Shown here: positions 3,931 through 32,654 of the stretch, piece by piece
Layout: each line of letters opens with the position of its first letter
How positions within the stretch are numbered: the stretch's first letter is position 1
DNA from: Acidobacteriota bacterium
Lineage (GTDB): Bacteria > Acidobacteriota > Thermoanaerobaculia > Gp7-AA8
Direction of reading: 5' to 3'
DNA length: 58,418 bases
Assembly: GCA_021781455.1 (NCBI GenBank)
Contig: JAJXWV010000031.1
Coordinates: 1-58,418 of the forward strand
Made by a program: the position numbers and the translations under genes
Notes under the pieces: model-generated
What the model saw: the letters and a program-made list of their open reading frames with translations, nothing else
Told to the model about the DNA's origin: nothing
Database searches by the model: none

Positions 3931-5553
3931 TCACGAAGACCCCGAAGGCCTGCGCCGCACGCTCTTCCAGATGCAGCCCTCCGGAGCCAGGCATCGCAAA
4001 GTCGACGTCCCGATCCACGTGTAGTCGTGCGCCGCGGCGTGCAGCGCTTCCCCGCGCGCAGCGGCCGGAACGTGGATGGCGAAGCGGTGCGCTGTCCCTC
4101 CTCCGCACAACGCGTTGACCGCCGGCTCGCTGGCTGCATTCGCTCGCGCGGCGCCCACGACCGTCCCGTGCTCGTTGGCGATGTCGACCCACACGGTGCC
4201 ACGCACCTCCGACGGTTGTGACCACGGGAAATCGGGATCGCACGCCCACCCCTCCGCCACCCCGTCGCGCGAGACACCCTCGAAAAAGCCGATAGGCGCG
4301 CTGTGGTTCGGCGGCATGAACCACGATTCGGCGCCGCGGCCTTCCGATTTTCCGATCCATTCGAAGCCGTGAATTTCGTAGACCTCGTATCGCCCGCGCG
4401 AGAAAAACCCGTTTGTCTCGGTGAACCTTTGCTGGTTGACCGGAGAGGTCGATCGGTAAATGGTCTCAGGAATGTCGGGCGGCCCATCGACGATGTCCGG
4501 GAAGAACGTCCGCACTGTGAAGTCGGCGCTGTTGAGGTGGTACATGTCGGGGTGGTAGACCGGTTCGCGCTGCGGATCGCCTCCACACCAGGCGTTGTCG
4601 AGCAGCGTCCACACGCCGCCGCTGCGGAGCGGGGTGATGCAACCGCCGTGGCCGCTAGCGTCGGGTCCGCGGAACTCCGTGCCGCTGGCCGACGCGCGTT
4701 GCACCTCGGCGAAGAGCCCGCGGGCAACGATCTCGTCGTCGACCGACAGCGGCGGCCCATAGTGGCCGTCGTAGCCGGACGCGCGCAGCCCGACAACCGC
4801 CGACGCAATGCTCGTCAGCAGCCCGAACCCGTAATGCACGAGCTCGTACCCGTGATTCAGCGCGAGGGTCACGGCCGATCCGGATTCCAGCTCGCTGATG
4901 GTGCCGTCGCAGAGGCGCGTGCGGTCACTCGCGGCGAACTTCGCCGGGTTGTGAATGCAGATGGCCGCAAAACCGGCGTGGATGTTGTCGATCGCCTTCT
5001 CCTGCAGCGCATCGACGTCGTCTCCCCTGCCTGCGCGGTAGGCGGCGATCCAGGCATACGCGGACGCATCGCCCGAGCGATCGTCCATGCAGGTGTTAGG
5101 CGGGTCCACTTCGAGGCCGCAGGGGATCGGCTCGGGCAGCGTCACTCCCACTTCGAAGCGCTGCAGGACGAGCGTCAGGAGGCAGTCGAGCGGCGTGTCC
5201 GGTGCGACGGTCCCGCTGCAGTCGCCGGCTGCCGCGTATCCCTCGTTGCCGAGCCGGTTCGCGGTAGCCATGACCAGCCCCACGTTGTAGCTGTCGAGCC
5301 AGCGTCGGAAGGCATTCGGCGAGGCATTGAGGCTGTTCGCCAGCTTCGCCTGGAGGGCGGCGAGCGCGCTCTCGACGCAGCGCGGGTCGTCGGCGTCTGC
5401 TTCGATCCGGCCATAGTCGTTGAGGTCGAGATCGACGTCGCCGGTCGTGTCGCCGCGATATGCCGTCGTGAAGTCAGGGGCGTCGATGTGGCAGGCGATG
5501 ACACGCGCACCGCAGAGGAACAACGCCAGAGCAAGCGATGGCAGCCGCAGCAT
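3931..5553 (-). CDS. Large secreted protein with C-terminal GWACDPD-type domain
   Basis: A protein of 540 residues with a signal peptide (MLRLPSLALALFLCGARVIA). It is Cys-rich (at least 14 Cys), consistent with life outside the cytoplasm. I do not recognise the main domain (about 20-410). The last 130 residues contain EGWACDPDFPW, GAARANAASEPAVNALCGGG and HRFAIHVP, a beta-sandwich module I know from secreted glycan-active and surface proteins. It ends exactly where the convergent radical SAM gene ends, so the two genes share no terminator space. Extracytoplasmic location is well supported; function unknown. Confidence 0.7.
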   Translation of the reverse strand: MLRLPSLALALFLCGARVIACHIDAPDFTTAYRGDTTGDVDLDLNDYGRIEADADDPRCVESALAALQAKLANSLNASPNAFRRWLDSYNVGLVMATANRLGNEGYAAAGDCSGTVAPDTPLDCLLTLVLQRFEVGVTLPEPIPCGLEVDPPNTCMDDRSGDASAYAWIAAYRAGRGDDVDALQEKAIDNIHAGFAAICIHNPAKFAASDRTRLCDGTISELESGSAVTLALNHGYELVHYGFGLLTSIASAVVGLRASGYDGHYGPPLSVDDEIVARGLFAEVQRASASGTEFRGPDASGHGGCITPLRSGGVWTLLDNAWCGGDPQREPVYHPDMYHLNSADFTVRTFFPDIVDGPPDIPETIYRSTSPVNQQRFTETNGFFSRGRYEVYEIHGFEWIGKSEGRGAESWFMPPNHSAPIGFFEGVSRDGVAEGWACDPDFPWSQPSEVRGTVWVDIANEHGTVVGAARANAASEPAVNALCGGGTAHRFAIHVPAAARGEALHAAAHDYTWIGTSTLRCLAPEGCIWKSVRRRPSGSS

Positions 5554-13341: not shown

Positions 13342-14510
13342 GCTGGCCTTACGCGCCACTGGACTTTGTCAAAGCGCCTACGCGATATGCGCTCGTCGGC
13401 GGCCCGTTCGGTTCGAACCTGACAACGCGTGACTATGTCGATGACGGCGTCCCAGTCATTCGCGGCTCCAATCTCCCTGACGATGCTACCTTTCGGGATG
13501 AGGATTTCGTGTTCGTGTCGGAGACCAAAGCTGACGATCTCCGATCGAACACTGCTTACCCGGGAGATGTGATCTTCACCCAGCGAGGCACGCTCGGTCA
13601 GGTCGGCGTCATCCCTCACGATGCGCGGTTCGCCAGGTACATCATTTCCCAGAGCCAGATGAAGCTCTCGGTTGACCCCGAGAAAGCCAACCCTCGTTTC
13701 GTCTACTACTTCTTTCGTCTGCCCGCGACCGTACAGAAGATCATCAACCAGACTTCGACGTCCGGCGTGCCTCACATCAATCTTGCAGTGTTGAAGGAGT
13801 TTGAGATCCCTTTGCCAGATGTCGTCATACAGGACGTGGTCGTTGACGTCCTGTCCGCCTTCGACGATCTGATCGAGAACAACCGGCGGCGGATGGCTCT
13901 GCTGGAGGAGGCGGCGCGGCAGCTCTATCGCGAGTGGTTCGTCCGCCTCCGCTTCCCCGGCCATGAGCACACTCGCGTGGTCGATGGCGTGCCAGAGCGG
14001 TGGGAACGAACCGCACTTGAGAATGCGCTAGTCCTTCAGCGTGGCTTCGATCTGCCCGCTCAAGCTAGAAATCAAGGAGACGTGCCAATCTATGGTTCCA
14101 CCGGCATTTGCGGCTATCACGATGCCTCGCGGGTCGCCGGACCCGGCTTGGTTACGGGACGCAGCGGTTCACTGGGCGAAGTTCATTTTGCTCCCTCAGA
14201 CTTCTGGCCGCTCAACACGGCCCTGTGGGTGAAAGAGTTTCGGCGGGTTACACCACTGTTCGCGCTCTATCTCCTTAGAGGAATGGATCTCAAGCAGTAC
14301 AACGGCGGCGCCTCAGTACCGACCCTCGATCGCAAAGCGGCGCACAAAGCCGAGATTCTTCTTCCGGATCATCGGATGATCGGGATGTTCGACGATTTCG
14401 CACGAACTGTGTACGCACAAATTGCGAACTTGGAAAAGCAGAATCAGAAGCTCCGCGCCGCCCGCGACCTTCTCCTCCCGCGCCTCATGAGCGGAGAGAT
14501 CGCGGTATGA
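13338..14510 (+). CDS. hsdS: Type I restriction-modification specificity subunit
   Basis: A protein of 390 residues starting at a GTG that overlaps the hsdM stop (GTGA). It shows two target-recognition domains, each followed by a conserved helix: IPLPDVVIQDVVVDVLSAFD-L-I-x-N near 160-180 and ILLPDHRMIGMFDDFAR near the C-terminus. The family uses each domain to read half of the DNA target. The central spacer helix MALLEEAARQLYREWF is typical. The terminal LLLPRLMSGEI motif shows the protein is complete. The next gene starts in the last four bases. Confidence 0.92.
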   Translation: MSWPYAPLDFVKAPTRYALVGGPFGSNLTTRDYVDDGVPVIRGSNLPDDATFRDEDFVFVSETKADDLRSNTAYPGDVIFTQRGTLGQVGVIPHDARFARYIISQSQMKLSVDPEKANPRFVYYFFRLPATVQKIINQTSTSGVPHINLAVLKEFEIPLPDVVIQDVVVDVLSAFDDLIENNRRRMALLEEAARQLYREWFVRLRFPGHEHTRVVDGVPERWERTALENALVLQRGFDLPAQARNQGDVPIYGSTGICGYHDASRVAGPGLVTGRSGSLGEVHFAPSDFWPLNTALWVKEFRRVTPLFALYLLRGMDLKQYNGGASVPTLDRKAAHKAEILLPDHRMIGMFDDFARTVYAQIANLEKQNQKLRAARDLLLPRLMSGEIAV

Positions 14511-15031
14511 GCGATCGCAAGAAGATCGTCATCATCGCCGGGCCGAATGGCGCGGGGAAAACGACCTTCGCGCGCGAATTCCTTCCGGCCGAGGCAGGAT
14601 TGCCGCTGTTCGTCAACGCGGATCTGATCGCCGCCGGTCTCTCTCCGTTCGATCCCGATGCCGCCGCCATTCGCGCCGGACGGCTCATGCTCGAACAGAT
14701 CGACGCTCACGCCCGCGCCGGACACAGCTTCGCGTTCGAGACCACACTCGCCGGTCACACGTACCTCCGCCGCATCGAACGCTGGCGTGCGGGCGGTTAC
14801 CTCGTGGAGCTCGTCTTTTTATCGCTTCCTTCAGCAGAGGACGCAATCAAGCGCGTCGCCACGCGCGTTCGACAAGGTGGTCACGACATTCCCGCCGACG
14901 TCGTCCGACGCCGTTTTGCGGCCGGTATGAGAAACTTTCTCGAGCTGTACAGGCAACGCGTCGACTACTGGATCTGGTACGACAACAGCGGCACGCGGCC
15001 GGTACTCCTCGGCAAAGGACATAAGCAATGA
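14507..15031 (+). CDS. Zeta-toxin-like P-loop kinase/ATPase
   Basis: A protein of 174 residues. Walker A is GPNGAGKTT at about 12-20, followed by FVNADLIAAGLSPFDP, then FAFETTLAG (conserved in zeta/UDP-GlcNAc-kinase-like proteins, COG4185), and Arg residues at the expected lid position (VATRVRQGGHDIPADVVRRR). Zeta toxins phosphorylate UDP-N-acetylglucosamine; many relatives have unknown substrates. The ATG lies in the last four bases of hsdS and its own stop overlaps the start of the small partner gene, so it is embedded in the restriction operon. Toxin activity is inference. Confidence 0.8.
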   Translation: MSDRKKIVIIAGPNGAGKTTFAREFLPAEAGLPLFVNADLIAAGLSPFDPDAAAIRAGRLMLEQIDAHARAGHSFAFETTLAGHTYLRRIERWRAGGYLVELVFLSLPSAEDAIKRVATRVRQGGHDIPADVVRRRFAAGMRNFLELYRQRVDYWIWYDNSGTRPVLLGKGHKQ

Positions 15032-15381: not shown

Positions 15382-15828
15382 CTACCAGAGATATCGTTCG
15401 TCGAAGGTGACCCCGAGGCTCTCGAGAATCGCGCGATACTCCTCCTGAAACGTGCGATGGCGGTGATGCTCCTCCTGCGATTCGATGTATTGCACCACTG
15501 AGTCGAGATCGCGACGGCTGAACGTGAATGCGCCGTATCCCTCCTGCCATGCAAACTCGGACACTCCGACTGTGTCGTGTACCCAAACCGACGACGCGCG
15601 CTTGATGTCGCGGAGAACATCGGCGAGGCAATGCATTGGCCGGAGACCGACTGCGAGGTGAACGTGATCCACGGTGCCGCCGACTCGAGAGGCGACTCCG
15701 CCGGCCTGACGAATGCAGCCGCCGAGGAACGCGTGGAGGCTGTCTCGCCAATTCTCGTCGATTAACGGTCGGCGCTCTTTCGTGCTGAAGACCAGGTGAT
15801 AGTCGAGCGCGGTGTGCGTGGAAGGCAT
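15382..15828 (-). CDS. REP-associated tyrosine transposase (RAYT, IS200/IS605 Y1 type)
   Basis: A protein of 148 residues. The start is the ATG at 15828 behind GGAGAA. Y1-transposase features are visible: N-terminal strand ALDYHLVFSTKERRP, the metal-binding HUH-type pair in GTVDHVHLAVGL, and a C-terminal helix with the candidate nucleophile Tyr in VQYIESQEEHH. These enzymes cut and rejoin single-stranded DNA at REP hairpins. Here it sits exactly between two inverted REP-like units, which supports RAYT rather than a free IS200 element. It lies inside a restriction operon, between the zeta-like pair and hsdR. Confidence 0.85.
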   Translation of the reverse strand: MPSTHTALDYHLVFSTKERRPLIDENWRDSLHAFLGGCIRQAGGVASRVGGTVDHVHLAVGLRPMHCLADVLRDIKRASSVWVHDTVGVSEFAWQEGYGAFTFSRRDLDSVVQYIESQEEHHRHRTFQEEYRAILESLGVTFDERYLW

Positions 15829-15932
15829 CGTGCGTTTCTCCGCTACGAGCATTCCTCGGATCATCGGTGCATTCAATGTTTCTACATTGCGAAGATCCGG
15901 CGCCGGGGCGCCCATTGTCGGCGGCCCCGTGG

Positions 15933-15990
15933 TCCGGTGGCGTCGCTTCGCTCCGCCACCGGCTACCGTTCGGCGCGCCTCCGGCGCGCG
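15933..15990. repeat. REP-like palindromic repeat, right copy (inverted)
   Basis: Reverse complement of 15278-15336 with one indel and one substitution. It carries the same two internal palindromes. It lies upstream of the RAYT start and about 130 bp before hsdR. Confidence 0.8.
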
Positions 15991-16124
15991 TTTCGGCAGG
16001 CAGGCCCACGGGCGCATCTGGCTCGGGCGGGGGTGTCGAGCGCAAATCTCTGACGCGTTGATTGGGCCTGAGTCACTACCTCCTGTAGAGTTAGAACCAT
16101 GGCGGCACTCGACGAGGAGCCTGC

Positions 16125-19100
16125 GTGGCGCTAACCGCGATCAACAGCGAAGACCGGCTCGTTCAGAAGACCTTCGCCGACCATCTCCACGACGCCCACG
16201 GCTGGGAAAGCGTCTACGCCTACAACACCGAGACGTTTGGCCCGAACGGAACGCTCGGCCGCGACTCCGAACGCGATGCCGTTCTGATGGGCGAGCTCCG
16301 CACCGCTATCGGGCGCCTGAATCCGGAAATGCCCGAAACCGCGCGCGATCTCGCGATCGAAAAGCTCACGCGCAGCGATCTCTCGCGATCGCTTCTCCAG
16401 CACAATCGCGAGTTCTACGGCTTCATTCAGAGAGGCGTGCCGGTTGACTGGCTCGACGAGACGGGTGAAATCCACTACGCCCGAGCACGCGTGATCGATT
16501 TCCGCGACGCGAAGAACAATCGCTTCCTTGCCGTGCGCGAACTCAAGATCCAGGGGACTCACGTTCCTCACTACAACCGCCGCGCCGATCTGGTCTGCTT
16601 CGTCAACGGCCTGCCGCTCGTCTTCATCGAGCTGAAGGCGGTGTACCGGAACATCCGAGCGGGCTTCGACGACAACCTCACCGACTACCTCAACGAAAGC
16701 ATTCCACACGCGTTCCATCACAACGCCTTTCTCGTCGTGAGCAACGGCGACCACGCGCGCTACGGATCGATCACGAGCAAGTGGGATCACTTCTCCGAAT
16801 GGAAGCGCGACCGTGAATCCGACAAAGGACGCGTCGACGCCGAGGCGCTGTTAGACGGCATGTTGGCCAAGGAGCGGCTGCTCGACATCGTCGAAAACTT
16901 CATCCTTTTTGATGACAGCCGACCCGGCGGCACACGAAAGATCGTGGCGCGCAATCATCAGGTGATCGGCGTCAACAATGCCGTGGCATCCGTCGAACGG
17001 CAGGAAGAGCTCAAACGCCAGTACCCGCCCGAAGCGCGTCTGCTCGAATACCGCGCCGTGGTCGAAACGAGGCTCGACCGTGTCGCCGACGAAGACGTGG
17101 CACCTCCCAGAGCCGTGGAGGAACTCGTCCTCTCGAAGCGTGCCCATCCCGATCTCGGGCGCATCGGCGTCTTCTGGCACACGCAGGGAAGCGGCAAGTC
17201 CTACTCGATGGCCTTCTTCGCCGAGAAGGTCCGGCGCTCGATCCCTGGAAACTTCACGTTCCTGATCATGACCGACCGCGAGGATCTCGACGACCAGATC
17301 CGGCGGACGTTCGTCGGTTCCGGCATCACCGATGAGAAGACTCCGCGCGCCGGATCGGGCAAAGAACTGAAAACGATCCTCCTCGGCAACCATCGCTATG
17401 TCTTCAGCCTCATTCACAAGTTCAACCAGCCTGTGACCGAGCCGTACAGCGAGCGTGACGACATCATCGTCATCTCCGACGAGGCGCATCGGACGCAGAT
17501 GGGGAAGTTCGCGCGCAATATGCGCCAGGCGCTTCCGAATGCCTCGTTCATCGGCTTCACAGGCACGCCCATCCTCAAGCACGACGAGCTAACTAAGAAG
17601 ATCTTCGGCGGATACATCTCGCGCTACGACTTCAAGCGATCCGAGGAAGACGGATCGACAGTCAAGTTGATCTACGAGAATCGCGGAGAGAAGCTCGGGA
17701 TCGAACGGCTCGACCTCAACGACCGCATCGCCGAGGCAGTCGAGAAGGCGGACCTCGATCAGGACCAGACTACGCTGCTCGAGAAGCTGCTCGGAAAAGA
17801 CTACGAGATCATCACGGCCGACGACCGCCTCGACAAGCTGGCCGACGATTTCGTCGAGCACTGTTCGACTCGTTGGGAGACCGGCAAGTCGATGATGGTC
17901 TGCATCGACAAGATCACCTGCGCGCGGATGCTGCAGCGGATCGAGCCTCGCTGGCAGGCGACCCTCCTTCAGGTCCGGGCGGCCGCCGCCGCCGCGGAAG
18001 GCGACCTGGCGATGGCCAGCGAAGCAGATCAACGCGAGCGTCTGAGCCGCGAGCTCGAATCATTGCGCGGGCGTGCACGATGGATGGAGAGCACCATCAT
18101 CGAGATCATCATCAGCGAGGCGCAGAACGAAGGGCGCGACTTCGCGAAGTGGGGCTTCGACATCATCCCTCATCGGGTGCGGATGAAGCGTGGCTTCGAA
18201 ACACCGGATGGCAAGCGCGTGAGCGTTGAGGACGCGTTCAAAGACCCCAACCATCCGTTCCGCGTGGCGATCGTCTGCGCGATGTGGCTGACGGGTTTCG
18301 ACGTCGAATGCCTGGCAACGCTCTACATCGACAAACCGATGAAGGCGCACACGCTGATGCAGGCCATCGCCCGCGCGAACCGCGTCTACCCCGGCAAAGA
18401 CTGCGGCGTCATCGTCGATTACAACGGGATGCTCAAGAGTCTCAGGCAGGCGCTCGCCGATTACGCCCTCGGCGACGAGGAGGGCGAGGAGTCAGGAACA
18501 CCGGCCGCCCCGATCAAAGAGCTCGTCGCGGCGCTGATCGACGCGATCGAAGAGGCTGAGCGTCACCTCGCTGCGCACGGCTTCGACGCGACACGCTTGA
18601 GGGGAGCGACCGGCTTCACGCGCATCGAAGCGCTCCGCGATGCGGTCGACGCCTGCTACACGTCGGACGAGGTCAAGCGCCGTTTCGAGATCATCGCGCG
18701 GCACGTGTTCATCCGGATGAAGGCCCTGGTCATGGAACCGGCCGCGTGGTCGTACGCCGAGCGGCACGACAACCTTGAAGCGATCTACAAGAAGCTCCAG
18801 GAACGGCGGGACACTGCGGATGTCACCGAGCTGCTGAAGGAACTGCATCGGATCGTCAATGAAGCCATCAGAGCTCAGGACGTCGGCGTCGATCATGCCG
18901 AAGGCCTCAAGGTGGACTTGAGCAAGATCGACTTCGAAAAGCTGCGCGAGGAGTTCGCACGCAAGGTCCGTCGCAAGCATTCGGCGTTGCAGGACATCCG
19001 CGACATCGTCGAGAAGAAGCTCGCAGACATGCTGCAGAACAACCCGCTGCGAATGGATTACTACCGCCGATACCAGGAGATCGTCGCCGACTACAACCGG

Positions 19101-19502
19101 GAGAAGGATCGAGCCACGGTCGAAGCAACGTTTGCGGCCCTGATGGATCTGGTCGCGTCGCTCGACACTGAGGAAAAGCGGGCGGCCGAGGAGGGTCTAA
19201 CCGAGACCGAACTGGCCTTGTTCGACCTGATCCTTCAGGGAAACATCGGACGGGCAGATCGCGAGCGAATCAAGCAGGCCAGCAGGCATCTGCTCGGGTC
19301 GATTCAGCGCGTGCTGGCGACCATGCCGCGGTGGACGGAAACGAGCACGACGCAGGCTGAGATTCGAACGACGATTCTCGACGATCTGTGGAGAACGCTT
19401 CCGCAGCCGCCATTCGATGACGAAGAGCTTCAGCGGGTCACGGAGCGCGTCTACGCGTACGTTTGGGGCAGGAGCGGCGTTGGAACAACGCCGTTCGCCT
19501 GA
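16125..19502 (+). CDS. hsdR: Type I restriction endonuclease subunit
   Basis: A protein of 1,125 residues. GTG at 16125 preceded by GAGGAG. The nuclease site is RRADLVCF (Asp155) and FIELKA (Glu169, Lys171). The translocase follows: Walker A TQGSGKS at 353-359, DEAH at 452-455, the motif III-like FTGTP, and the motor end around MWLTGFDVECLATLYIDKP and QAIARANR. With HsdM and HsdS it translocates and cuts unmethylated DNA. It is separated from hsdMS by the zeta-like pair and the REP/RAYT insertion, but all four subunit-level parts appear intact. A protein-kinase scrap follows its stop directly. Confidence 0.95.
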   Translation: MALTAINSEDRLVQKTFADHLHDAHGWESVYAYNTETFGPNGTLGRDSERDAVLMGELRTAIGRLNPEMPETARDLAIEKLTRSDLSRSLLQHNREFYGFIQRGVPVDWLDETGEIHYARARVIDFRDAKNNRFLAVRELKIQGTHVPHYNRRADLVCFVNGLPLVFIELKAVYRNIRAGFDDNLTDYLNESIPHAFHHNAFLVVSNGDHARYGSITSKWDHFSEWKRDRESDKGRVDAEALLDGMLAKERLLDIVENFILFDDSRPGGTRKIVARNHQVIGVNNAVASVERQEELKRQYPPEARLLEYRAVVETRLDRVADEDVAPPRAVEELVLSKRAHPDLGRIGVFWHTQGSGKSYSMAFFAEKVRRSIPGNFTFLIMTDREDLDDQIRRTFVGSGITDEKTPRAGSGKELKTILLGNHRYVFSLIHKFNQPVTEPYSERDDIIVISDEAHRTQMGKFARNMRQALPNASFIGFTGTPILKHDELTKKIFGGYISRYDFKRSEEDGSTVKLIYENRGEKLGIERLDLNDRIAEAVEKADLDQDQTTLLEKLLGKDYEIITADDRLDKLADDFVEHCSTRWETGKSMMVCIDKITCARMLQRIEPRWQATLLQVRAAAAAAEGDLAMASEADQRERLSRELESLRGRARWMESTIIEIIISEAQNEGRDFAKWGFDIIPHRVRMKRGFETPDGKRVSVEDAFKDPNHPFRVAIVCAMWLTGFDVECLATLYIDKPMKAHTLMQAIARANRVYPGKDCGVIVDYNGMLKSLRQALADYALGDEEGEESGTPAAPIKELVAALIDAIEEAERHLAAHGFDATRLRGATGFTRIEALRDAVDACYTSDEVKRRFEIIARHVFIRMKALVMEPAAWSYAERHDNLEAIYKKLQERRDTADVTELLKELHRIVNEAIRAQDVGVDHAEGLKVDLSKIDFEKLREEFARKVRRKHSALQDIRDIVEKKLADMLQNNPLRMDYYRRYQEIVADYNREKDRATVEATFAALMDLVASLDTEEKRAAEEGLTETELALFDLILQGNIGRADRERIKQASRHLLGSIQRVLATMPRWTETSTTQAEIRTTILDDLWRTLPQPPFDDEELQRVTERVYAYVWGRSGVGTTPFA

Positions 19503-19642: not shown

Positions 19643-19762
19643 GGCTCCTGGTCACTTCCGTCTCCCATCGGTGGAGTCCTCGGAAGTTGCCAAAGACAGT
19701 TGTCACCACGGCGTGACCTCAGCGGCATTCCGAGGGATCATTAGACAGTTCGGAACGACGTG

Positions 19763-20905
19763 ATGAAGGTTGACGTCAAAGCGGAGCTGGTGCGCTGGGC
19801 GCGTGAGCGGTCGATGATCGAGCGCGACGTTCTCGAGGAACGCTTTCCCAAGCTCGATGCGTGGGAGAGCGGCGAGGCGCTTCCGACGTTGAAACAGCTC
19901 GAGAACTTCGCACGAGCCACGCATACTCCTTTCGGGTACTTCTTCCTTTCTGAGCCGCCGGTCGAGCGGATGCCGATTCCCGATTTCCGAACGGTTGCCG
20001 GCGCACGGATCGGCCGTCCGAGCCCCGATCTCCTCGACACGATCTATCTCTGCCAGCAGCGTCAGGAGTGGTATCGCGAGTTCGCCCGCTCCACTGGCGA
20101 GCGTCCAGTGTCCTTCGCGGCTTCCGCGACTGCCACCTCGAACGTGATCGAAGCAGCCGCAAACATCCGACACACCCTCGGCTTTGATGTCGAAGAGCGC
20201 CGCCGGATCCCGACTTGGACCGACGCATTGCGCCGCTTCATCGAGGTCGCCGACGCCGCCGGCGTGCTGGTCATGGTCAGCGGCGTCGTCGGCAGCAACA
20301 ATCGGCGCAAGCTCGACACGGATGAATTCCGCGGCTTCGCTTTGGCTGATCCGCTCGCGCCGCTCGTGTTCATCAACGGCTCGGACACGAAGGCGGCGCA
20401 GATGTTCACCCTCGCTCATGAGCTCGCTCACGTCTGGCTCGGCCAGTCCGCGGTGTCGGATTCGCAGCCGTCTCTTGCGCCCGATAACCGAGTCGAGCGT
20501 TGGTGCAACGAGGTCGCTGCGGAGCTGCTGGTTCCGATGGCGATCCTGCGCGACGAATACCGCGACGGCGCGAATGTTGAGCACGAGATGGAGCGGCTGG
20601 CGCGGCGCTTCAAAGTCAGCACGCTCGTGATCCTGCGCCGCATCTTCGACGTTGGCAGCCTGACGCAGCAGCACTTCCATCAGGCGTACGAGAGCGAGCT
20701 GCAGCGCCTGCTCGCCCTCCCGGCCGGCAGCGGAGGCAACTTCTACCTGACTCTCGGGGCGCGAGCCAGCAAGCGATTCGCGCGGGCCCTGGTGGTGAGC
20801 ACGCTCGAGGGTCGCTCGTCGTTCACCGAGGCGCTGCGACTTCTCGGCTTCAAGAAGATGACGACATTTCGGGAGCTGGGCCAGAACCTGGGGCTCGCTG
20901 TCTGA
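19763..20905 (+). CDS. XRE/ImmA-IrrE family regulator-metallopeptidase
   Basis: A protein of 380 residues (ATG at 19763; a GTG lies three bases earlier). The N-terminal 70 residues form a helix-turn-helix-like unit (WARERSMIERDVLEERFP, TLKQLENFARATHTPFGYFF). The zinc-peptidase motif HELAH is in FTLAHELAHVWLG near residue 217, with the downstream NEVAAELLVP Glu. ImmA/IrrE proteins cleave or relieve repressors. Here it is followed, overlapping by one base, by a DUF4411 gene, a known pairing. I infer a toxin-antitoxin-like or defence-linked unit in which this protein controls its partner. Confidence 0.85.
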   Translation: MKVDVKAELVRWARERSMIERDVLEERFPKLDAWESGEALPTLKQLENFARATHTPFGYFFLSEPPVERMPIPDFRTVAGARIGRPSPDLLDTIYLCQQRQEWYREFARSTGERPVSFAASATATSNVIEAAANIRHTLGFDVEERRRIPTWTDALRRFIEVADAAGVLVMVSGVVGSNNRRKLDTDEFRGFALADPLAPLVFINGSDTKAAQMFTLAHELAHVWLGQSAVSDSQPSLAPDNRVERWCNEVAAELLVPMAILRDEYRDGANVEHEMERLARRFKVSTLVILRRIFDVGSLTQQHFHQAYESELQRLLALPAGSGGNFYLTLGARASKRFARALVVSTLEGRSSFTEALRLLGFKKMTTFRELGQNLGLAV

Positions 20906-21390
20906 TGGCGTACCTGCTCGACGCGAACGTCTTCATCGCGGCGAAGAATCTTCACTATGGACTCGACTTCTGCCCCGCATTCTGGGACTGGCTGATCGAA
21001 CGGAATCAAGCCGGGATCGTCTACAGCGTCGAGAAAGTTGCTGACGAGATCGAGGATGGCGCCGATGATCTGTCGGAATGGGCGGCGGCTTTGGATCCGA
21101 CGTTCTTCCAGGCGCCAGACCCCTCCGTGATTGCGTCTCTGGCCGCAGTCAGCGACTGGGCAACGTCTGGCGGGTACGAACCGGCCGCGATCAGCACGTT
21201 CCTGCAGGTCGCCGACTATTACCTCGTTGCGCAAGCGCATGCTGGCCAGCACATCGTCGTGACGCACGAACGGCCCGCAGCCACGACGCGAAGGATCAAG
21301 ATTCCCGACGCGTGCATAGGCCTCGGAATCAAGTTCATGTCGCCCTTCGAAATGCTGCGTCGGGAGCACGCCCGCTTCGTGCTTGGCTGA
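20905..21390 (+). CDS. DUF4411 PIN-like protein
   Basis: A protein of 161 residues whose ATG overlaps the preceding TGA. PIN-fold acidic residues can be seen: LLDANVFI (first Asp), EKVADEIEDG (Glu), QVADYYLVAQA (Asp) and VVTHE. PIN proteins are metal-dependent ribonucleases, often toxins. The pairing with an ImmA/IrrE protein is the usual DUF4411 context. Ribonuclease activity is inferred from fold residues only. Confidence 0.8.
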   Translation: MAYLLDANVFIAAKNLHYGLDFCPAFWDWLIERNQAGIVYSVEKVADEIEDGADDLSEWAAALDPTFFQAPDPSVIASLAAVSDWATSGGYEPAAISTFLQVADYYLVAQAHAGQHIVVTHERPAATTRRIKIPDACIGLGIKFMSPFEMLRREHARFVLG

Positions 21391-21705: not shown

Positions 21706-22233
21706 ATGTCGTCATCATCGACATCGAGACGTCTCGTCGCTCTTTCCGCACTCCTGCTCGGTGCACTCGGGCTCGCCGTCACGGGATGGCAAATGCGCCA
21801 CAAGCTTCCGCTGCCGACGACGACGGTTGGCGTCGGCAAGCCGCTTCCGTCGATCGTCGTCAGCGATCCCACCGGGCGGCCCGTCGATCTTGCCACGGTG
21901 GTCGGAGGCGGATCCCGTTCCGTCATCGTCTTCTATTCGCCGTCGTGCGGCGTCTGCCAGAAGGAGCTGCCGCAGATCGGTCCATTCCCCCCGGAGCTCA
22001 GGCTTGTCCTGGTACGCGAGCCGGGCGACGACATGGCCGACCCGCTCGCATCGGCGGTCAGTCAGCGGTTCGCTGATCGCGACGGCGCGCTCAAGCGCGC
22101 CTTCGTCCTGCCGGTGTTGCCCACGGTGCTGCTGGTCGACGAAAGAGGATTCGTACGCGACGGTTTCGTCGGCGAGCATGAGGCTCGATCCGCTCAGCAG
22201 AAACTGGTCGCCTTTGCCCGTCGGGGGCGCTGA
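21706..22233 (+). CDS. Membrane-anchored thioredoxin-like protein, first gene of the peptide operon
   Basis: A protein of 175 residues. ATG at 21706 behind GAGGAG. One N-terminal membrane helix (about 10-28) after the basic start SSTSRR puts the rest outside the cytoplasm. The thioredoxin fold is shown by VIVFYSPSCGVCQKELP, with the redox pair Cys81/Cys84, and by the cis-Pro strand LPVLPTVLLVDERG. It probably makes, reduces or rearranges disulfides in exported substrates. The next genes encode peptides with four Cys each, the obvious candidates. Seven bases separate it from the C39 peptidase gene. DsbD-like recycling partners are not in the window. Confidence 0.8.
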   Translation: MSSSSTSRRLVALSALLLGALGLAVTGWQMRHKLPLPTTTVGVGKPLPSIVVSDPTGRPVDLATVVGGGSRSVIVFYSPSCGVCQKELPQIGPFPPELRLVLVREPGDDMADPLASAVSQRFADRDGALKRAFVLPVLPTVLLVDERGFVRDGFVGEHEARSAQQKLVAFARRGR

Positions 22234-22240
22234 GATATCG

Positions 22241-22828
22241 ATGCCGACGCGATCGCAACGACTTGGCGCCGCAGCGATTCTTGCGGTTCTCGCGATCGCG
22301 GGCGCGGCGTTCGTGTCGCTGCCAGCAATCGTCCGTCGCGTTGCGTTGCCGAGGGAGCGACTGAAGGAATTGCGCGCAGCAATCGAGGGTGCGAGGTACG
22401 TCGGTGACAGCGGCGTCATTCTGCAAAAGCACCGCAACGATTGTGCGGCGGCTTGCCTGAAGATGATCCTCGCCGGCCGCGGCATCGAGCGAGACCTCTC
22501 GACCCTGGCGCTCGATGCCGGCACGTCCGCTGCCGGCGCTTCGATCGCAGGGCTGCGCGTGGCCGCAGCGCGCGCAGGAATCGAGTCGCGCGCCTGGTTC
22601 CTGACCAAAGCCGATCTTCGCCGAGCTCCTCTGCCCGCCATCGCCTTCGTTCGCAGCGACCACTTCGTCGTCATCCGGCGATTCCTCGCTCCCGATCTGG
22701 TCGAGGTCGATGACCCCGCAATCGGAAGGCTGCACTGGCGTTTCTCCGCATTTGCGCGGGCGTGGAAAGGAGAAACGATCGTCTTCGACCCGACATGGGA
22801 TCCACAGCAAAGAGTGTCGTGCCGATGA
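22241..22828 (+). CDS. Membrane-anchored C39 (double-glycine) peptidase
   Basis: A protein of 195 residues. An N-terminal membrane helix (about 9-26) follows the basic MPTRSQR, so the catalytic part should face outward. The C39 signature is complete: Gln and Cys in ILQKHRNDCAAACLKMIL, His in RSDHFVVIRR, Asp in VEVDDPAIG. C39 peptidases cut leader peptides after Gly-Gly, usually as the N-terminal domain of a PCAT-type ABC exporter in the cytoplasm. Here the domain is free-standing and apparently extracytoplasmic, which is unusual. The two small genes that follow both contain a Gly-Gly before a Cys-containing core. Confidence 0.88.
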   Translation: MPTRSQRLGAAAILAVLAIAGAAFVSLPAIVRRVALPRERLKELRAAIEGARYVGDSGVILQKHRNDCAAACLKMILAGRGIERDLSTLALDAGTSAAGASIAGLRVAAARAGIESRAWFLTKADLRRAPLPAIAFVRSDHFVVIRRFLAPDLVEVDDPAIGRLHWRFSAFARAWKGETIVFDPTWDPQQRVSCR

Positions 22829-22859: not shown

Positions 22860-23117
22860 ATGAAGAAACGGTCCTATCTGCTGCTCGCGGTTCTCGCGGC
22901 CATCGCCGTCTCGGTCAGTGCCGTGAGCGCATTCGTGCCGCCGGCCGGAAGTCACGCGCTGGTGGCGAGTGTCCAGACGCAGCTCTCCGGCGGCGTGAGC
23001 TGCGATGGTGCCCTCGGTCTCACCGGCGCTCTCGCTCTCGGCGCATTGACCCCCTGCTCGATCATGTGCGCGGTTGGCGCGTGGTACAGCCTCGCGCTCA
23101 TCGCGTACGCGTGCTGA
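22860..23117 (+). CDS. Precursor of a four-Cys hydrophobic peptide (peptide A)
   Basis: A precursor of 85 residues. ATG at 22860 after a perfect AAGGAGG. Residues 1-24 are a Sec-type signal (MKKRSYLLLAVLAAIAVS, then AVSA). A linker ends in QLSGG at 41-45. Cutting after Gly45 would release 40 residues with Cys at 3, 21, 25 and 40, the last residue being Cys. The product is strongly hydrophobic, Gly/Ala/Leu-rich (DGALGLTGALALGAL) with a single acidic residue and no basic one. Peptide B has the same Cys layout. I infer a bacteriocin-like or signalling peptide; no known family recognised. Signal peptidase could alternatively cut after Ala24. Confidence 0.75.
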   Translation: MKKRSYLLLAVLAAIAVSVSAVSAFVPPAGSHALVASVQTQLSGGVSCDGALGLTGALALGALTPCSIMCAVGAWYSLALIAYAC

Positions 23118-23136
23118 GCACCTCCGAGAGGGAGCA

Positions 23137-23229
23137 ATGAGATCCGAAAAATGGCTTCTGGCTGGGCGCATCATGGGCGCACTGGGGATCCTCCTGGTGC
23201 TGTGGCAGTACGCCCGGATGCACGCGTAA
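23137..23229 (+). CDS. 30-residue single-helix membrane peptide
   Basis: ATG at 23137 follows GAGAGGGAG, a strong ribosome site. The product starts MRSEKWLLAGR, has one membrane helix (IMGALGILLVLWQY) and ends RMHA. It lies 19 bp after peptide A and 19 bp before peptide B, inside the operon. Its size, single helix and position suggest an immunity or accessory peptide, but nothing in the sequence proves that. There is no Gly-Gly site and no Cys. Confidence 0.5.
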   Translation: MRSEKWLLAGRIMGALGILLVLWQYARMHA

Positions 23230-23248
23230 GTATCTAACAGGAGGTTCC

Positions 23249-23500
23249 ATGAAAGGTCGAAGGGGTATTTTCATCGTGGCGATGGTTTTGACAGTCGCAA
23301 TCGCAACATCGGTATCAGTTGCGGGCGCGTCCGGCAGCGGCATTCTCGGTCCCGTCCAGCAGGCTTCCGCCGTCGGCGGCGACGCCTGTGAGTTCGCCGG
23401 CGGATTTGCCCTCGGACTCGGAGTCGCGGGACTCTTCGGTTGCGTGGTCTGCGGTGGCGGCGCTCTCGTACTGGGAGCAGCGCGGTTCTTGATGTGCTGA
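23249..23500 (+). CDS. Precursor of a four-Cys hydrophobic peptide (peptide B)
   Basis: A precursor of 83 residues with ATG at 23249 after ACAGGAGG. Residues 1-27 form a Sec-type signal (MKGRRGIFIVAMVLTVAIAT). The linker ends in ASAVGG at 39-44. Cutting after Gly44 releases 39 residues with Cys at 3, 21, 24 and 39 (again C-terminal). Spacing is C-x17-C-x2-C-x14-C against C-x17-C-x3-C-x14-C in peptide A, although the other residues differ (EFAGGFALGLGVAGLFG between the first two Cys). Both peptides have glycine-rich helix-like stretches, as two-peptide bacteriocins do. Same inference and limits as peptide A. Confidence 0.75.
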   Translation: MKGRRGIFIVAMVLTVAIATSVSVAGASGSGILGPVQQASAVGGDACEFAGGFALGLGVAGLFGCVVCGGGALVLGAARFLMC

Positions 23501-23518: not shown

Positions 23519-23548
23519 AAGTTGGCGCCCCTTCCGGGGCGCCAACTT
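23519..23548 (+). terminator. Perfect 13-bp hairpin between peptide and transporter genes
   Basis: AAGTTGGCGCCCC, loop TTCC, then the exact complement. No T-run follows, so it is not a classical full terminator. In this place, after two precursor genes needed in excess and before membrane transporter genes, it could protect the upstream mRNA end or lower downstream expression. It ends about 11 bp before the permease start, so it could also limit ribosome loading. Confidence 0.5.
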
Positions 23549-23559
23549 CGCGGAGCGCG

Positions 23560-25035
23560 ATGGTGTTTCTTCTCGGAAGGATGCTTTGCAGACAGAGGTT
23601 ACGGCGCCTGCAGCGACAGTACGGCTGGCCGGCCGTGCTGAGCATGGCCGCGTTGGCCATCCTGATCACCGGCAGGTTCGCGCACGTCATCGGACGGTTT
23701 CCTCTCGTCGTGACGGTTTCCGACCTGGAGAAGATCGCTGGTTCGCTGTGGCTGACGTGGGTCGCCGTCGGTGTGGTCACCGGGCGCGATCTGACGTGGC
23801 ATATCGGCGCCGATCGTCTGATCGCGCTCAGGATCGGATTCGTGCGCCTGTATGCGGTGGAGCTCGCGCTTTCCCTCTTCACGGTCCCGCTGGCCGTGGT
23901 CCTTTCGATCCTTTCGATGGTGGCAGTCCTCGGCCGATGGAGCGCGAGCCGTTGGTTCTTGGCCGCGATCGGGTTCGTAGCGGTGGTGTACACGGTTAGA
24001 GCGACCGTCTCACTTGCGAGAGTCGCGGCATTCAGAGCCAGGGTCCTTCCCCTACGCGCACGAGTCTTCGTCTATGTCGTCATCGCCATGATCGTCGCCG
24101 TCGTCGCCGCTCCCTGGCTGGTCCGGCTGCACCCCGCGCGAGCGCTGGCGGATCTGCTGCTGCAGCAGTCCACGATGCGAGCGCTGCTGATTCTCCTCCT
24201 CTCCGTTTCTGCCCTCCTCATCGCGGACTTCTTCGTCACGAAAAGCGTGGTCTACTCCGGCAGTTCGGGCCCTGCGTCGAGGCGCGGCGCCAGCCGTCGT
24301 GCGGAGAGCCTGCCGCTCGGGAGCGTGTGGCTGCGGCTTCCGCTGCTTTGGCGAGTGAGCATGGCAGGGTGGCTGCGGAACCGCAGCGCAGTCCTTCTCC
24401 TGCTGTGGGGCGCCGCATACGGATTTGCATGGCCGTTTTTCTCGCGTGTGCAAGGGGTGTACGACTTCGTGCCGTACATCTGGATGGTGATGATCTTCCA
24501 TGCTTACTTGCGCGGCAACGTTCTGGGTGTCGACGGCGCGGGGCTCTGGTTCTACACGACGCTCGGCGTCACGATGGATCGGCTGATGCGCGTGAAGAAC
24601 GCGACGCTGACGGCGATGCAGGCCGTCATGATCGGCGCGGTTCTGCTCGCGGCGGCGCTGAAGCGTCACTCGGGCGTCGAGACGCCGCTGACCTGGGCGT
24701 GCCTGCTGTCGTTCGCTGTATGCGGGCTGCTCGTTGGAGAGATTGCGGGGACGATCATGTCGATCCGCTATCCGGAGAGAATCGATCGCACGTCAATGTA
24801 CTCGGGCGGATTCACGGTCGGCGCGCTCCTCGTGCCGGTGTTGCAGTTCATTCTCGCCGGGGGAGCATTGATCGTTTTCGCCGTGCCTCCGACTCCGACG
24901 AACTGGTTCCTGTTCATCGCTGCACCGGTGGTCCTGGCGGTGCTGAGATGGCGCGCACTCCCGGTCTGGCGCTCCGCTCTGCTTCGGCGCGACGGGGAAG
25001 AGATGCTTGACAAGATCGGGGCGCTGGCGGCATGA
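23560..25035 (+). CDS. Large polytopic membrane protein, ABC permease partner
   Basis: A protein of 491 residues from the ATG at 23560 (GGAGCG just upstream; an earlier GTG at 23509 would run through the hairpin). About 10-12 hydrophobic helices are visible, for example WPAVLSMAALAILITG, LFTVPLAVVLSILSMVAV, VFVYVVIAMIVAVVAAPWLV and VGALLVPVLQFILAGGALIV. A loop near 230-260 is Ser/Arg-rich. I do not recognise the family by sequence. It overlaps the ATPase gene by four bases (ATGA), so it is almost certainly the membrane half of an ABC system for peptide export or self-protection. Confidence 0.75.
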   Translation: MVFLLGRMLCRQRLRRLQRQYGWPAVLSMAALAILITGRFAHVIGRFPLVVTVSDLEKIAGSLWLTWVAVGVVTGRDLTWHIGADRLIALRIGFVRLYAVELALSLFTVPLAVVLSILSMVAVLGRWSASRWFLAAIGFVAVVYTVRATVSLARVAAFRARVLPLRARVFVYVVIAMIVAVVAAPWLVRLHPARALADLLLQQSTMRALLILLLSVSALLIADFFVTKSVVYSGSSGPASRRGASRRAESLPLGSVWLRLPLLWRVSMAGWLRNRSAVLLLLWGAAYGFAWPFFSRVQGVYDFVPYIWMVMIFHAYLRGNVLGVDGAGLWFYTTLGVTMDRLMRVKNATLTAMQAVMIGAVLLAAALKRHSGVETPLTWACLLSFAVCGLLVGEIAGTIMSIRYPERIDRTSMYSGGFTVGALLVPVLQFILAGGALIVFAVPPTPTNWFLFIAAPVVLAVLRWRALPVWRSALLRRDGEEMLDKIGALAA

Positions 25036-25790
25036 CCGAGGCCATCCGAGTCGAACGGCTCTCGAAGGACTATGGTCGCGCCCCGGCCGTCCAGGAGCTC
25101 ACTTTCAGCGTCGAGAGTGGGACGATCTACGGCCTCATCGGCCCGAACGGAGCCGGAAAGACGACGACGCTGTCGATCCTGGCGGGCCTGCTCGCCCCGA
25201 CTTCGGGACTGGTATCGATCCTCGATAAACCGGTTGTGGCCGGGCGCGCCTCTGCGCACACGGAGTCGGGCTTCTACTCGTCGCAGTTCGGTTTCTTCGA
25301 CTATCTGACCGGCCGCGAGATCCTCGCGCTGGGCGGCGGAATGAACGGCCTGACACCGGCCACAGTGGAGACGCGAATCGACGATCTCCTCAATCTGTTC
25401 GATCTCCAACCGGCCGCTGATCACTACGTCTACGAATACTCCCACGGCATGCGCCAGAAGCTCGGCCTCGCCGCGGCGTTGATTCATGCACCCGCCGTTC
25501 TTCTTCTCGACGAGCCCTTCGACGGTCTCGATCCGACCTCGCTCTACAGGCTGGTCGCCACTTTGCGCGCCGTTTCTGACGCCGGAAAGTCGGTGCTGCT
25601 GACGTCGCACGATCTTGCGCTCGTCGAGCGCGTCTGCGGCCGTGTCGGCGTCCTCAACCACGGGCGGATGGAGCGGGAGATCGATCTCAATTCGGACCTC
25701 GGCCCGTCGCGCGACCGCCGCAGTGCCCTCGAGGCCGCGCTGTGGGAGATCGTCGGCGCCCCGACTTATGAACCTCTCACGTGGATCTGA
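25032..25790 (+). CDS. ABC transporter ATPase of the peptide operon
   Basis: A protein of 252 residues. Walker A GPNGAGKTT, the signature region YSHGMRQKLGLAAAL, Walker B VLLLDEPFDGLD and the H-loop LLTSHDLAL are all present. It has the CcmA/drug-ABC (DRA/NatA-like) form common in bacteriocin immunity and export. It is coupled to the permease upstream, and the Yip1-like gene begins 13 bp downstream. With C39 as a separate protein, this is not a PCAT-type exporter. Confidence 0.9.
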   Translation: MTEAIRVERLSKDYGRAPAVQELTFSVESGTIYGLIGPNGAGKTTTLSILAGLLAPTSGLVSILDKPVVAGRASAHTESGFYSSQFGFFDYLTGREILALGGGMNGLTPATVETRIDDLLNLFDLQPAADHYVYEYSHGMRQKLGLAAALIHAPAVLLLDEPFDGLDPTSLYRLVATLRAVSDAGKSVLLTSHDLALVERVCGRVGVLNHGRMEREIDLNSDLGPSRDRRSALEAALWEIVGAPTYEPLTWI

Positions 25791-25803: not shown

Positions 25804-26544
25804 ATGGAAACGATCGCAACCGAAGCCCAGTTTGTAAGCGAGCCGCCGCGCGCGTTACGCGGGCTGATGCTCTACTGGCAGATGTTCACCAATCCGGTGG
25901 TCACGCTCACTTTGCTGCGCGACACGCCGCGCGCCTTTCTGCCGACGCTCACAGCTGCAGTCATCGCCACCGCCGTCAACTACTACGTCATCTACAAGAT
26001 CGGCCTGCGGCGGCTGATGGAACAGGCATTCCGTGCGACCGCCGCGGTCGACGTCGACACGCTCATCGCCAGCGCCATGACGCACCGCGACGAGATCATG
26101 ACCACTCAGGCCCTGTCCGCATTTTTCGGCCTCGTGGTGACGGTTCTTCTCCTCGCCCTGCTGTACTGGCTTGCTGCAACCGTCGCAGGAGGCGATGTCT
26201 CCTACGAGCGGATCCTTGCCGTCGTCGCGCACGTGACTTTCTTCACGACCGCCGTCAAGGAAAGCATGATCGCCCTCGTGGTGACGGTAAGCCGCAACCT
26301 GAGCACGTTCAACATCAAGAATCCCCTCGGGACGAACCCGGCGTTCTTCGTCCAGACCACCTCGCCGGGCCTGAACCGCATGCTCCTGAGCGCGGATGCG
26401 ATCACGATCGCCGGCGTCGTCCTCACGATCATCGGCATCCGGCGCGTTTCCACTTCGCTCTCCCCAACAGCGGCGGCGGCCGTCGTCCTGGTCCCCTGGC
26501 TCGTTTACGTCATCGCGGCCGCGTGGCTGCCGTGGCTCGGCTGA
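25804..26544 (+). CDS. Yip1-like integral membrane protein, last gene of the peptide operon
   Basis: A protein of 246 residues with ATG at 25804 behind GGAGTG. The N-terminus is soluble (METIATEAQF, PPRALRGLMLYWQMFTNP), followed by about five membrane helices, with the first near FLPTLTAAVIATAVNYYVIY. Layout and the P-x-x-x-F-like entry resemble Yip1-domain proteins. In Bacillus subtilis the Yip1 protein YknW works with an ABC transporter (YknXYZ) that protects against the Sec-exported SDP toxin. That parallel makes a self-protection role attractive here, but it is inference. Confidence 0.65.
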   Translation: METIATEAQFVSEPPRALRGLMLYWQMFTNPVVTLTLLRDTPRAFLPTLTAAVIATAVNYYVIYKIGLRRLMEQAFRATAAVDVDTLIASAMTHRDEIMTTQALSAFFGLVVTVLLLALLYWLAATVAGGDVSYERILAVVAHVTFFTTAVKESMIALVVTVSRNLSTFNIKNPLGTNPAFFVQTTSPGLNRMLLSADAITIAGVVLTIIGIRRVSTSLSPTAAAAVVLVPWLVYVIAAAWLPWLG

Positions 26545-31019: not shown

Positions 31020-31389
31020 CGGCGAAGTTCTCGGCAAATTGCGAGCGGATGCTCGTGGAGATGATCCGCCAGCACTACAACCATCCGGCCATCTTCTTCT
31101 GGGGCACGATGAACGAGGTCATGCTCTGCGGCTCTGCGAGACGAGGGCCGGAGCGAAGCCCGGCGACCGCATCTTCTCGATTTTTGCGAACGGCCGGGAG
31201 ATCGTCCACGATCTCGATCTCGCGGCGGAGTACGGCGCCTACACTGCGGTCTCGCGAACGTTTTTCGCCGTTGCGGCCGACGGCAGCGGGATCTCGATCG
31301 AGCTCAGGCCGACCGCAGGTGAGGCCTCGATCAGCGGGATCGAAGTGAGGCGATGGCTCGGGACTGCCGTGTCAGGTGCCCGGCGCTGA
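31020..31389 (+). pseudogene. Remnant of a GH2 beta-galactosidase with malectin domain
   Basis: One frame encodes NCERMLVEMIRQHYNHPAIF then FWGTMNE, the GH2 catalytic region with the acid/base Glu. About 40 bp later, in another frame, the DNA encodes RIFSIFANGREIVHDLDLAA and ISIELRPTAGEASISGIEV, the end of a malectin carbohydrate-binding domain. All sequence between these parts and the whole N-terminus are gone. It is a deleted and frameshifted relic. Its tail overlaps the 3' end of the channel gene on the other strand. Confidence 0.7.
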
Positions 31390-32467
31390 CATCACTCTGC
31401 AGATATCGAAGCTCGATGTCGCGCCACACCGGTTGTTCGGTGACGGTCAGCATCTCGAGATTGATCTCCTCGCGCAGCGGGCTGCCGTTCGGAATGATGA
31501 AGCCGTAGTTCTCGGTCTCGACCATCTGCGGAAGGATGGTCAGGTTGAGCCGGTCGCGGCACAGAAATTTCAGCGTGGCGGCGTCGTCGACGAACGCGTC
31601 GACCTTCCGGCTGGCGACGGCATCCAGGCCGCTTCCCAGCGTTGGAAAGGGCTTCGTCGCGATGTCGTGATGGCGCAGGTACGCCTGGGCAACGCTCCCT
31701 TCGACCGCGCCCACGACATGCCGGCCCAGGTCGTGATAGCCGCGAATTGCGCTCAGGTGTCCGAGGGAGAGCTTCGCAGTCACGGTCGCGGTGAGCGCCG
31801 AGACGCAGATCACGCTCACCAGCATCCACACCAGTGCCACGAGGCGACCGGCCGCTGTCACCGGCACTTTGTCCCCGTAGCCGACGCCGGTGAACGTCAC
31901 TCCCGACCACCAGAAGCCGTCGCCGATGCCGGCGACTCCTCGGGAAAAGCGATTGGCGTTCTGCTTTCGCTCCAGCAGCCACATCGCCGCTCCCGCGAGC
32001 AGAAGGAACGCGAACAGGGCGCCGAAGATCATGGCGAAGTCCTTCGAGAAGATCGTGCTGACCACGTCCTGCCAGCGCACGCTTTCCGCATCGCGGAGCA
32101 CGACGATGCTGAGGCCGGAGGTGTAGAAGACGTGGGTGAAGTCGACCACCCGCTCTCGTTCGGCGGTGATGGCGAAAGGGTTGACCGCGATATCGAGCTC
32201 GTTTCGCGAAATCCTCAGGATCAGCTCGTCGCGGGGAGCCTCGACGAATGTGTAGCGGTAGTGGAGCCCGTTCGCGATCTGCTTCCAGAGGTCGACGCTG
32301 ATGCCGGTCCACTGACCGGCGGCGTTCTTGAACGAGAACGGAGGAATCTCGCAGATCCCGACCTGAAGCGTTCGCCCGGCCGTACGCTCTGAAGGCTGGG
32401 CGGCAGCGGAGGCAGTGGTGCAGAACAGCAGTACGAGGGCGTACGCCAGGGCGGGGCCGGCTCTCAT
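31331..32467 (-). CDS. GluR0-like ligand-gated potassium channel
   Basis: A protein of 378 residues. ATG at 32467 behind AGGAAGG, with a signal peptide ending SAAAQ. Domain order is that of a prokaryotic ionotropic glutamate receptor: periplasmic binding lobe 1 (VGICEIPPFSFKNAAGQWTG; the ITAERERVVDFT segment carries the ligand Arg equivalent), membrane helix 1 (about 145-165), a pore loop with the K+ filter TGVGYGD (193-199), membrane helix 2 (about 208-230), then lobe 2 (VDAFVDDAATLKFL). The family passes K+ when an amino acid binds. The ligand is not certain. The last 10 residues lie over the GH2 relic and may not be native. Confidence 0.88.
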   Translation of the reverse strand: MRAGPALAYALVLLFCTTASAAAQPSERTAGRTLQVGICEIPPFSFKNAAGQWTGISVDLWKQIANGLHYRYTFVEAPRDELILRISRNELDIAVNPFAITAERERVVDFTHVFYTSGLSIVVLRDAESVRWQDVVSTIFSKDFAMIFGALFAFLLLAGAAMWLLERKQNANRFSRGVAGIGDGFWWSGVTFTGVGYGDKVPVTAAGRLVALVWMLVSVICVSALTATVTAKLSLGHLSAIRGYHDLGRHVVGAVEGSVAQAYLRHHDIATKPFPTLGSGLDAVASRKVDAFVDDAATLKFLCRDRLNLTILPQMVETENYGFIIPNGSPLREEINLEMLTVTEQPVWRDIELRYLQSDVSAGHLTRQSRAIASLRSR

Positions 32468-32654
32468 GACCTTCCTGCAGTGTCTCGCATCATCATCGAT
32501 GATTCTACACACAGGCTGGAGAGGGCGCCCCGACGCCCGAGCCGCTTCACCGGTTGCACGCGTGCATGGCTTGCAGAAGAAGCATGCGACTCTTGCCGTG
32601 GGTGCGCGATCCCTTGGGCATCACCGCCTCGACGCGTTATCCTCCGCCCCTTCC

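Follow-up and report, generated by a model that had tools for sequence, protein, structure and literature searches.

The DNA analyzed here, a stretch of 58,418 nucleotides from an Acidobacteriota genome that we call the window, carries a cassette built around two small peptide genes, A and B. From 5' to 3' it comprises a thioredoxin, a free-standing C39 peptidase, A, a 30-aa membrane ORF, B, a stem-loop, a permease, an ABC ATPase, and a Yip1/YknW protein. The gene order is identical in the window and in the cassettes of two further genomes, L066 and L171. The features are as follows.

21706-22233, forward strand: TlpA/ResA-like thioredoxin-fold protein (PF00578, E 1.9e-6) with an N-terminal membrane anchor and a CGVC active site.
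22241-22828, forward strand: free-standing C39 double-glycine peptidase (PF03412, E 3.6e-24) with an N-terminal membrane anchor and without ABC domains.
22860-23117, forward strand: peptide A precursor with a Sec-like signal peptide, a propeptide, GG at 22989-22994, and the core at 22995-23114; orthologues in L066, L067, and L171.
23137-23229, forward strand: 30-aa single-TM ORF, MRSEKWLLAGRIMGALGILLVLWQYARMHA, between A and B; 39-aa homologues in the same place in L066, L067, and L171.
23249-23500, forward strand: peptide B precursor with a Sec-like signal peptide, a propeptide, GG at 23375-23380, and the core at 23381-23497; orthologues in L066 and L171.
23519-23548, forward strand: stem-loop directly 3' of B, with a 13-bp perfect stem, a TTCC loop, and no T-run (z -3.2).
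23560-25035, forward strand: polytopic membrane protein, presumed ABC permease; the ATPase gene overlaps the end of its gene.
25032-25790, forward strand: ABC ATPase, DrrA/lantibiotic-protection-like (PF00005, E 1.2e-27).
25804-26544, forward strand: Yip1/YknW-family membrane protein (PF04893, E 2.9e-9; NF052650 YknW, E 3.7e-14, below the cut-off).

The intergenic gaps from the thioredoxin gene to B are about 7, 31, 19, and 19 bp, and good ribosome sites were seen by eye ahead of A and B. The promoter scan found no sigma-70-like site. L066 (z -2.9) and L171 (z -6.1) have stem-loops of different sequence at this position, and another follows the peptide gene of the L068 cassette (z -5.1). The element is likely an mRNA stabilizer or partial terminator, and it probably sets the level of the peptide genes above that of the ABC genes. 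Our guess is that the 30-aa ORF is a candidate immunity or accessory peptide. Codon-substitution ratios of A, B, and this ORF were 0.3-0.8; in genes this short, such values are too noisy to be proof of selection.

Direct reading gave MKKRSYLLLAVLAAIAVSVSAVSAFVPPAGSHALVASVQTQLSGG up to the cut and VSCDGALGLTGALALGALTPCSIMCAVGAWYSLALIAYAC beyond it for A, a core of 40 residues with Cys at positions 3, 21, 25, and 40 after the GG. The corresponding parts of B are MKGRRGIFIVAMVLTVAIATSVSVAGASGSGILGPVQQASAVGG and DACEFAGGFALGLGVAGLFGCVVCGGGALVLGAARFLMC, with a core of 39 residues and Cys at 3, 21, 24, and 39. The positions, spacing, coordinates, and terminal Cys that a preliminary description had assigned to both peptides were thus confirmed. 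When four Cys were placed at random in cores of 40 and 39 residues, agreement at all four positions within one residue arose in 789 of 1,000,000 trials, and agreement in all three gaps in 4054 of 1,000,000. Conservation of the pattern in other genomes is stronger evidence than these odds.

The search for homologues was based on the alignment of the C39 peptidase, which was scanned against a one-genome-per-species collection (84,980 species). The closest loci were L066 and L067, with 49-51% identity over the matched segment; the third genome, L171, came from searching the phylum with the thioredoxin alignment. In both L066 and L171, the order of A, the small ORF, and B is that of the window; in L067, A and the small ORF are present and the contig ends after them. 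A was detected in these three genomes only, among 38 genomes of their class. Searches with the single sequence of A lacked power for Gly/Ala-rich peptides such as these, and the top match of the first peptide search, L002, was rejected because it lies antisense to a kinase gene.

Every copy of A (window, L066, L067, and L171) has the pattern C-x17-C-x3-C-x13/14-C, and every copy of B (window, L066, and L171) has C-x17/18-C-x2-C-x14-C, in both cases with a terminal Cys. Over the seven sequences, the four Cys columns are invariant, and so are those of Met1, a single leader Leu, one of the two GG glycines, and a single Gly of the core. The Cys positions are therefore kept in all four A and three B sequences, which is what the alignment of homologues had been proposed to decide. 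The residues between the Cys, previously described as not alike except for being hydrophobic and Gly/Ala-rich, do have this composition but are not wholly unlike: a profile-profile comparison of A with B gave E 1.5e-4 and a probability of 51%, and because of this match the two are probably diverged paralogues. The suggestion of two disulfides in one shared fold is strengthened by the Cys kept in every homologue found, by the adjoining thioredoxin-like gene with its invariant CxxC, and by the probably shared ancestry of A and B. It sits less well with an odd fifth Cys in the B peptide of L066. The AlphaFold model of A is a helical hairpin (helices 50-62 and 67-84) of low confidence (pLDDT 61). 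No match to the bacteriocin families of Pfam and NCBIfam was found for A, B, or their relatives.

The window C39 protein has 49-51% identity to proteins of another class, versus about 40-43% to those of a second genus of its own class (matched segments), which suggests that the cassette may have moved between lineages. Viral contigs held no relatives of the C39 protein; the plasmid matches were weak, and the annotated ones are ABC exporters.

Both putative processing enzymes appear intact. In the thioredoxin, the CxxC (C81 and C84) and P139 are invariant in 11 cassette homologues. In the C39 protein, residues Q62, C68, H141, and D158 are invariant in 13 homologues, and the Cys-His-Asp set and the Gln are complete; it also matches the PDB entry 6mpz, "Double Glycine Motif Protease domain" (E 2e-9).

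For GG peptides, the described site of cleavage is the cytosolic face of ABC exporters, where C39 domains cut them. The cassette has no C39-domain ABC exporter; a further C39 match was seen on another contig (G000:C55), within a long open frame. This frame could encode an ABC exporter, which could carry out the usual export of GG peptides. Each of the seven A/B precursors starts with a basic N-terminus, continues with a hydrophobic stretch (mean KD 2.1-2.9), and reaches the GG after a further 17-22 residues. These leaders of 39-45 aa contain a Sec-like segment, as judged by eye and hydropathy. The window C39 and thioredoxin proteins also have a basic segment and a single hydrophobic helix at the N-terminus; under the positive-inside rule, the active domains of both would face outward. 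The simplest reading of these sequences is that Sec exports the peptides, and that they are then oxidized and finally cut at GG outside the inner membrane.

The presumed permease had no match in Pfam, NCBIfam, or the PDB. Its identity is 31% to the L066 and L171 proteins and 17-22% to those of sister cassettes, and at E 1e-10 a search of 149 genomes of the window's class found it in no other genome. A fold search with its model, whose confidence was lower than the pLDDT of A, returned nothing significant. The ATPase matched TIGR01188 (E 8.2e-56) and TIGR03740 (E 1.6e-41), in both cases below the curated cut-offs. Yip1 was also found in the L066, L058, L056, and L068 cassettes.

We consider it probable that the locus encodes a gallocin-A-like two-peptide (A plus B), disulfide-stabilized, membrane-active bacteriocin with Sec export, periplasmic C39 cleavage at GG, and ABC/Yip1 self-protection. 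The observed basis of this model is the gene content and order, the conserved Cys, the intact catalytic residues, the bipartite leaders, and the conserved stem-loop. A bacteriocin is indicated by the small, hydrophobic, Gly/Ala-rich cores, the GG sites, the peptidase and thiol partner, the divergence outside the Cys, and the ABC/Yip1 unit. An antibacterial disulfide-locked pair is most likely since the Cys are kept across genomes and neighboring genes would provide for clipping, oxidation, and producer protection.

From here we infer each biochemical step of the A/B system, together with its antibacterial activity, target, and immunity. The A and B precursors would be exported through Sec and lose their first segment to signal peptidase. 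Their cysteines would then be oxidized outside the inner membrane by the membrane-anchored thioredoxin-like protein, and the membrane-anchored C39 peptidase would cut after the Gly-Gly in the periplasm to release hydrophobic cores of 38-41 residues. Each core is predicted to be a two-helix hairpin that Cys1-Cys4 closes and that carries Cys2-Cys3 (CxxxC/CxxC) at its turn; on membranes, A and B would act jointly. The producer would be protected by the permease/ATPase/Yip1 complex, and perhaps also by the 30-aa ORF.

Gallocin A is the closest analogue. It consists of two peptides that form helical hairpins and require a disulfide near their ends and the surface thioredoxin BlpT; its immunity protein is encoded by a small third gene, and its leader, a typical GG leader, has 23 aa in all (PMC10100652). 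The gallocin A type of class IIb comprises gallocin A, thermophilin 13, brochocin C, and ABP-118 (PMC10100652). Shared with A/B are two adjacent GG-site peptides with few charges and Cys near both core ends, a thioredoxin-like partner outside the cell membrane (here suggested by the N-terminal anchor), and a small third ORF; for A, a helical hairpin is predicted at the low pLDDT given above. In contrast, the gallocin peptides have two Cys each, 23-aa leaders, and cleavage by an ABC exporter, whereas A and B have four Cys and a Sec-like signal plus propeptide, and their cassette has a stand-alone anchored C39 peptidase, a diderm host, and an ABC/Yip1 unit.

Pediocin PA-1 (class IIa) is made as a GG precursor with four Cys, including a C-terminal one, and has a dedicated thiol accessory protein. 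These three traits are shared with A/B. Unlike pediocin PA-1, A and B lack the YGNGV motif (direct reading) and have another Cys spacing and hydrophobic Gly/Ala-rich cores, and no C39-domain ABC exporter accompanies them.

Cassettes with thioredoxin, C39, peptides, permease, ATPase, and Yip1 were also found in a second genus of the Thermoanaerobaculia, with MAGs labelled Holophagales SB06xx and others, and in the Ignavibacteriales genome L068; in some of these sister loci, ATPase and Yip1 stand in another order. They carry other Cys-containing hydrophobic GG peptides, from one to three per cassette and one in L068. Grouping of 49 loci (34 distinct) gave 21 peptide families; each candidate had been pre-selected to contain two or more Cys and a GG-like site, and hence has both by construction. 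In most families, however, one Cys lies near the core start and one no more than five residues from the end, which is not a selection effect and fits an outer Cys1-Cys4 bond. The L058 and L053 peptides have an extra inner CxxxC, as in A.

A and B could instead be two independent single-peptide bacteriocins that use one common maturation cassette and form no obligate pair. The variable number of peptides per sister cassette, with some mixing, fits this alternative, and so does the probable paralogy of A and B, which duplication in an arms race would be expected to produce. Against it, A and B occur together and in the same order in three of three complete loci. In the sister genus, families 1 and 0 co-occur in 10 loci (Fisher p 0.005) and families 3 and 4 in four of the four loci scored (p 1e-4), although shared descent inflates both values, and the L052 locus holds another pair with a common framework (C-x2-C-x28/30-C-x3-C). 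We therefore regard independent action as rather unlikely. The proposal that A and B are two partners gains support from their joint presence in all complete loci and from the fixed adjacent pairs of sister cassettes, and is tempered by the range of one to three peptides per cassette, which would also suit single peptides.

The L052 locus, in the window's genus, encodes two Cys peptides without a clear GG site (4810-5145, C-x2-C-x30-C-x3-C; 5181-5468, C-x2-C-x28-C-x3-C), as well as a C39, a thioredoxin-like gene, and an ABC ATPase; the framework differs from that of A/B and is shared within the pair. Many sister cassettes also encode, between C39 and the hydrophobic peptides, conserved secreted Cys peptides rich in proline (e.g., ...FPFPPSPRPFPVPWPFPSPWPGPDKCLPPILF).

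L054, 7900-8211: proline-rich Cys peptide.
L056, 7535-7852: proline-rich Cys peptide.
L060, 8241-8570: proline-rich Cys peptide.
L059, 8708-8992: proline-rich Cys peptide.

In two of the families (2 and 13), the GG leader is short and canonical and lacks the Sec-like segment, so that the export route is not uniform and may differ for these two. Such leaders of 22-25 aa occur in the same cassettes as Sec-like peptides (L054, 7686-7859; L060, 8015-8200), which implies two export routes or cytosolic cleavage. In the Ignavibacteria, L082 (5034-6200) encodes a C39 relative and a six-Cys GG/GA peptide.

The self-protection proposed for the bacteriocin has a parallel in YknW, a Yip1 protein of the YknWXYZ ABC transporter, which protects against SDP, a 42-aa toxin with one disulfide (PMC4887032). 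Both systems combine a peptide of about 40 residues with a disulfide (here predicted) and a Yip1 protein and ABC transporter linked to protection (here proposed). YknZ is MacB-like and works with the YknX adaptor, whereas the cassette permease has no match among known families and the cassette showed no adaptor gene. The Sec-type leader, small size, disulfide potential, and Yip1-plus-ABC partner resemble SDP/YknWXYZ (PMC4887032), and A and B might be cannibalism or signaling peptides aimed at the producer's own population. This seems improbable, as SdpAB-type maturation genes were not found in the cassette, none of its proteins matched an SdpA/SdpB-type family, and Yip1 alone does not set the target.

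FapD is a C39 peptidase that works in the periplasm, and the periplasmic C39 class has been called uncharacterized (PMC5557850). FapD and the cassette C39 have in common an extracytoplasmic location and Sec-targeted substrates, both predicted for the cassette C39, and GG/GA candidate sites. FapD acts in amyloid secretion, on a substrate that is unclear, whereas the likely substrates of the cassette C39 are the adjacent GG peptides. A structural role for A and B, as secreted amyloid or pilus-like peptides processed by a peptidase of the FapD/FilB type, is very improbable: the C39 protein weakly matches the models of FapD (E 1.3e-4), itself periplasmic (PMC5557850), and FilB (E 0.014), but its match to the bacteriocin-exporter model TIGR03796 is stronger (E 5.5e-15), A and B are short and hydrophobic without Asn/Gln-rich repeats, and fap is without a described ABC/Yip1 unit in PMC5557850.

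Returning to the bacteriocin model, we tentatively propose, with some reserve, a diderm family (Acidobacteriota and Ignavibacteria) of disulfide-locked hairpin bacteriocins that would be exported by Sec, oxidized by a dedicated thioredoxin, and then cleaved at GG by a stand-alone, anchored C39 acting outside the inner membrane; immunity would come from Yip1 and a permease of a new family. If true, this would extend the range of disulfide-stabilized two-peptide bacteriocins, known from Gram-positive bacteria, into uncultured diderm phyla. The cassette is also a small, clear candidate peptidase-substrate pair for testing the periplasmic C39 class, and its family offers many natural Cys frameworks for comparison. 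An earlier description of the cassette may exist outside the open-licence literature.

Next to the peptide cassette, on its upstream side, the window encodes a zeta-toxin-like gene (14507-15031), an IS200-type transposase (15382-16017, reverse strand), the R subunit of a type I restriction system (16125-19502), and a pair of M78/IrrE-like and DUF4411 genes (19760-21390) resembling a toxin-antitoxin unit. The peptide cassette may lie within a defense/conflict region. Farther downstream, at 31331-32512 on the reverse strand, lies a solute-binding and ion-channel protein with glutamate-receptor-like ligand-gated domains (PF00497, PF07885, and PF10613), a bacterial GluR0-like channel.
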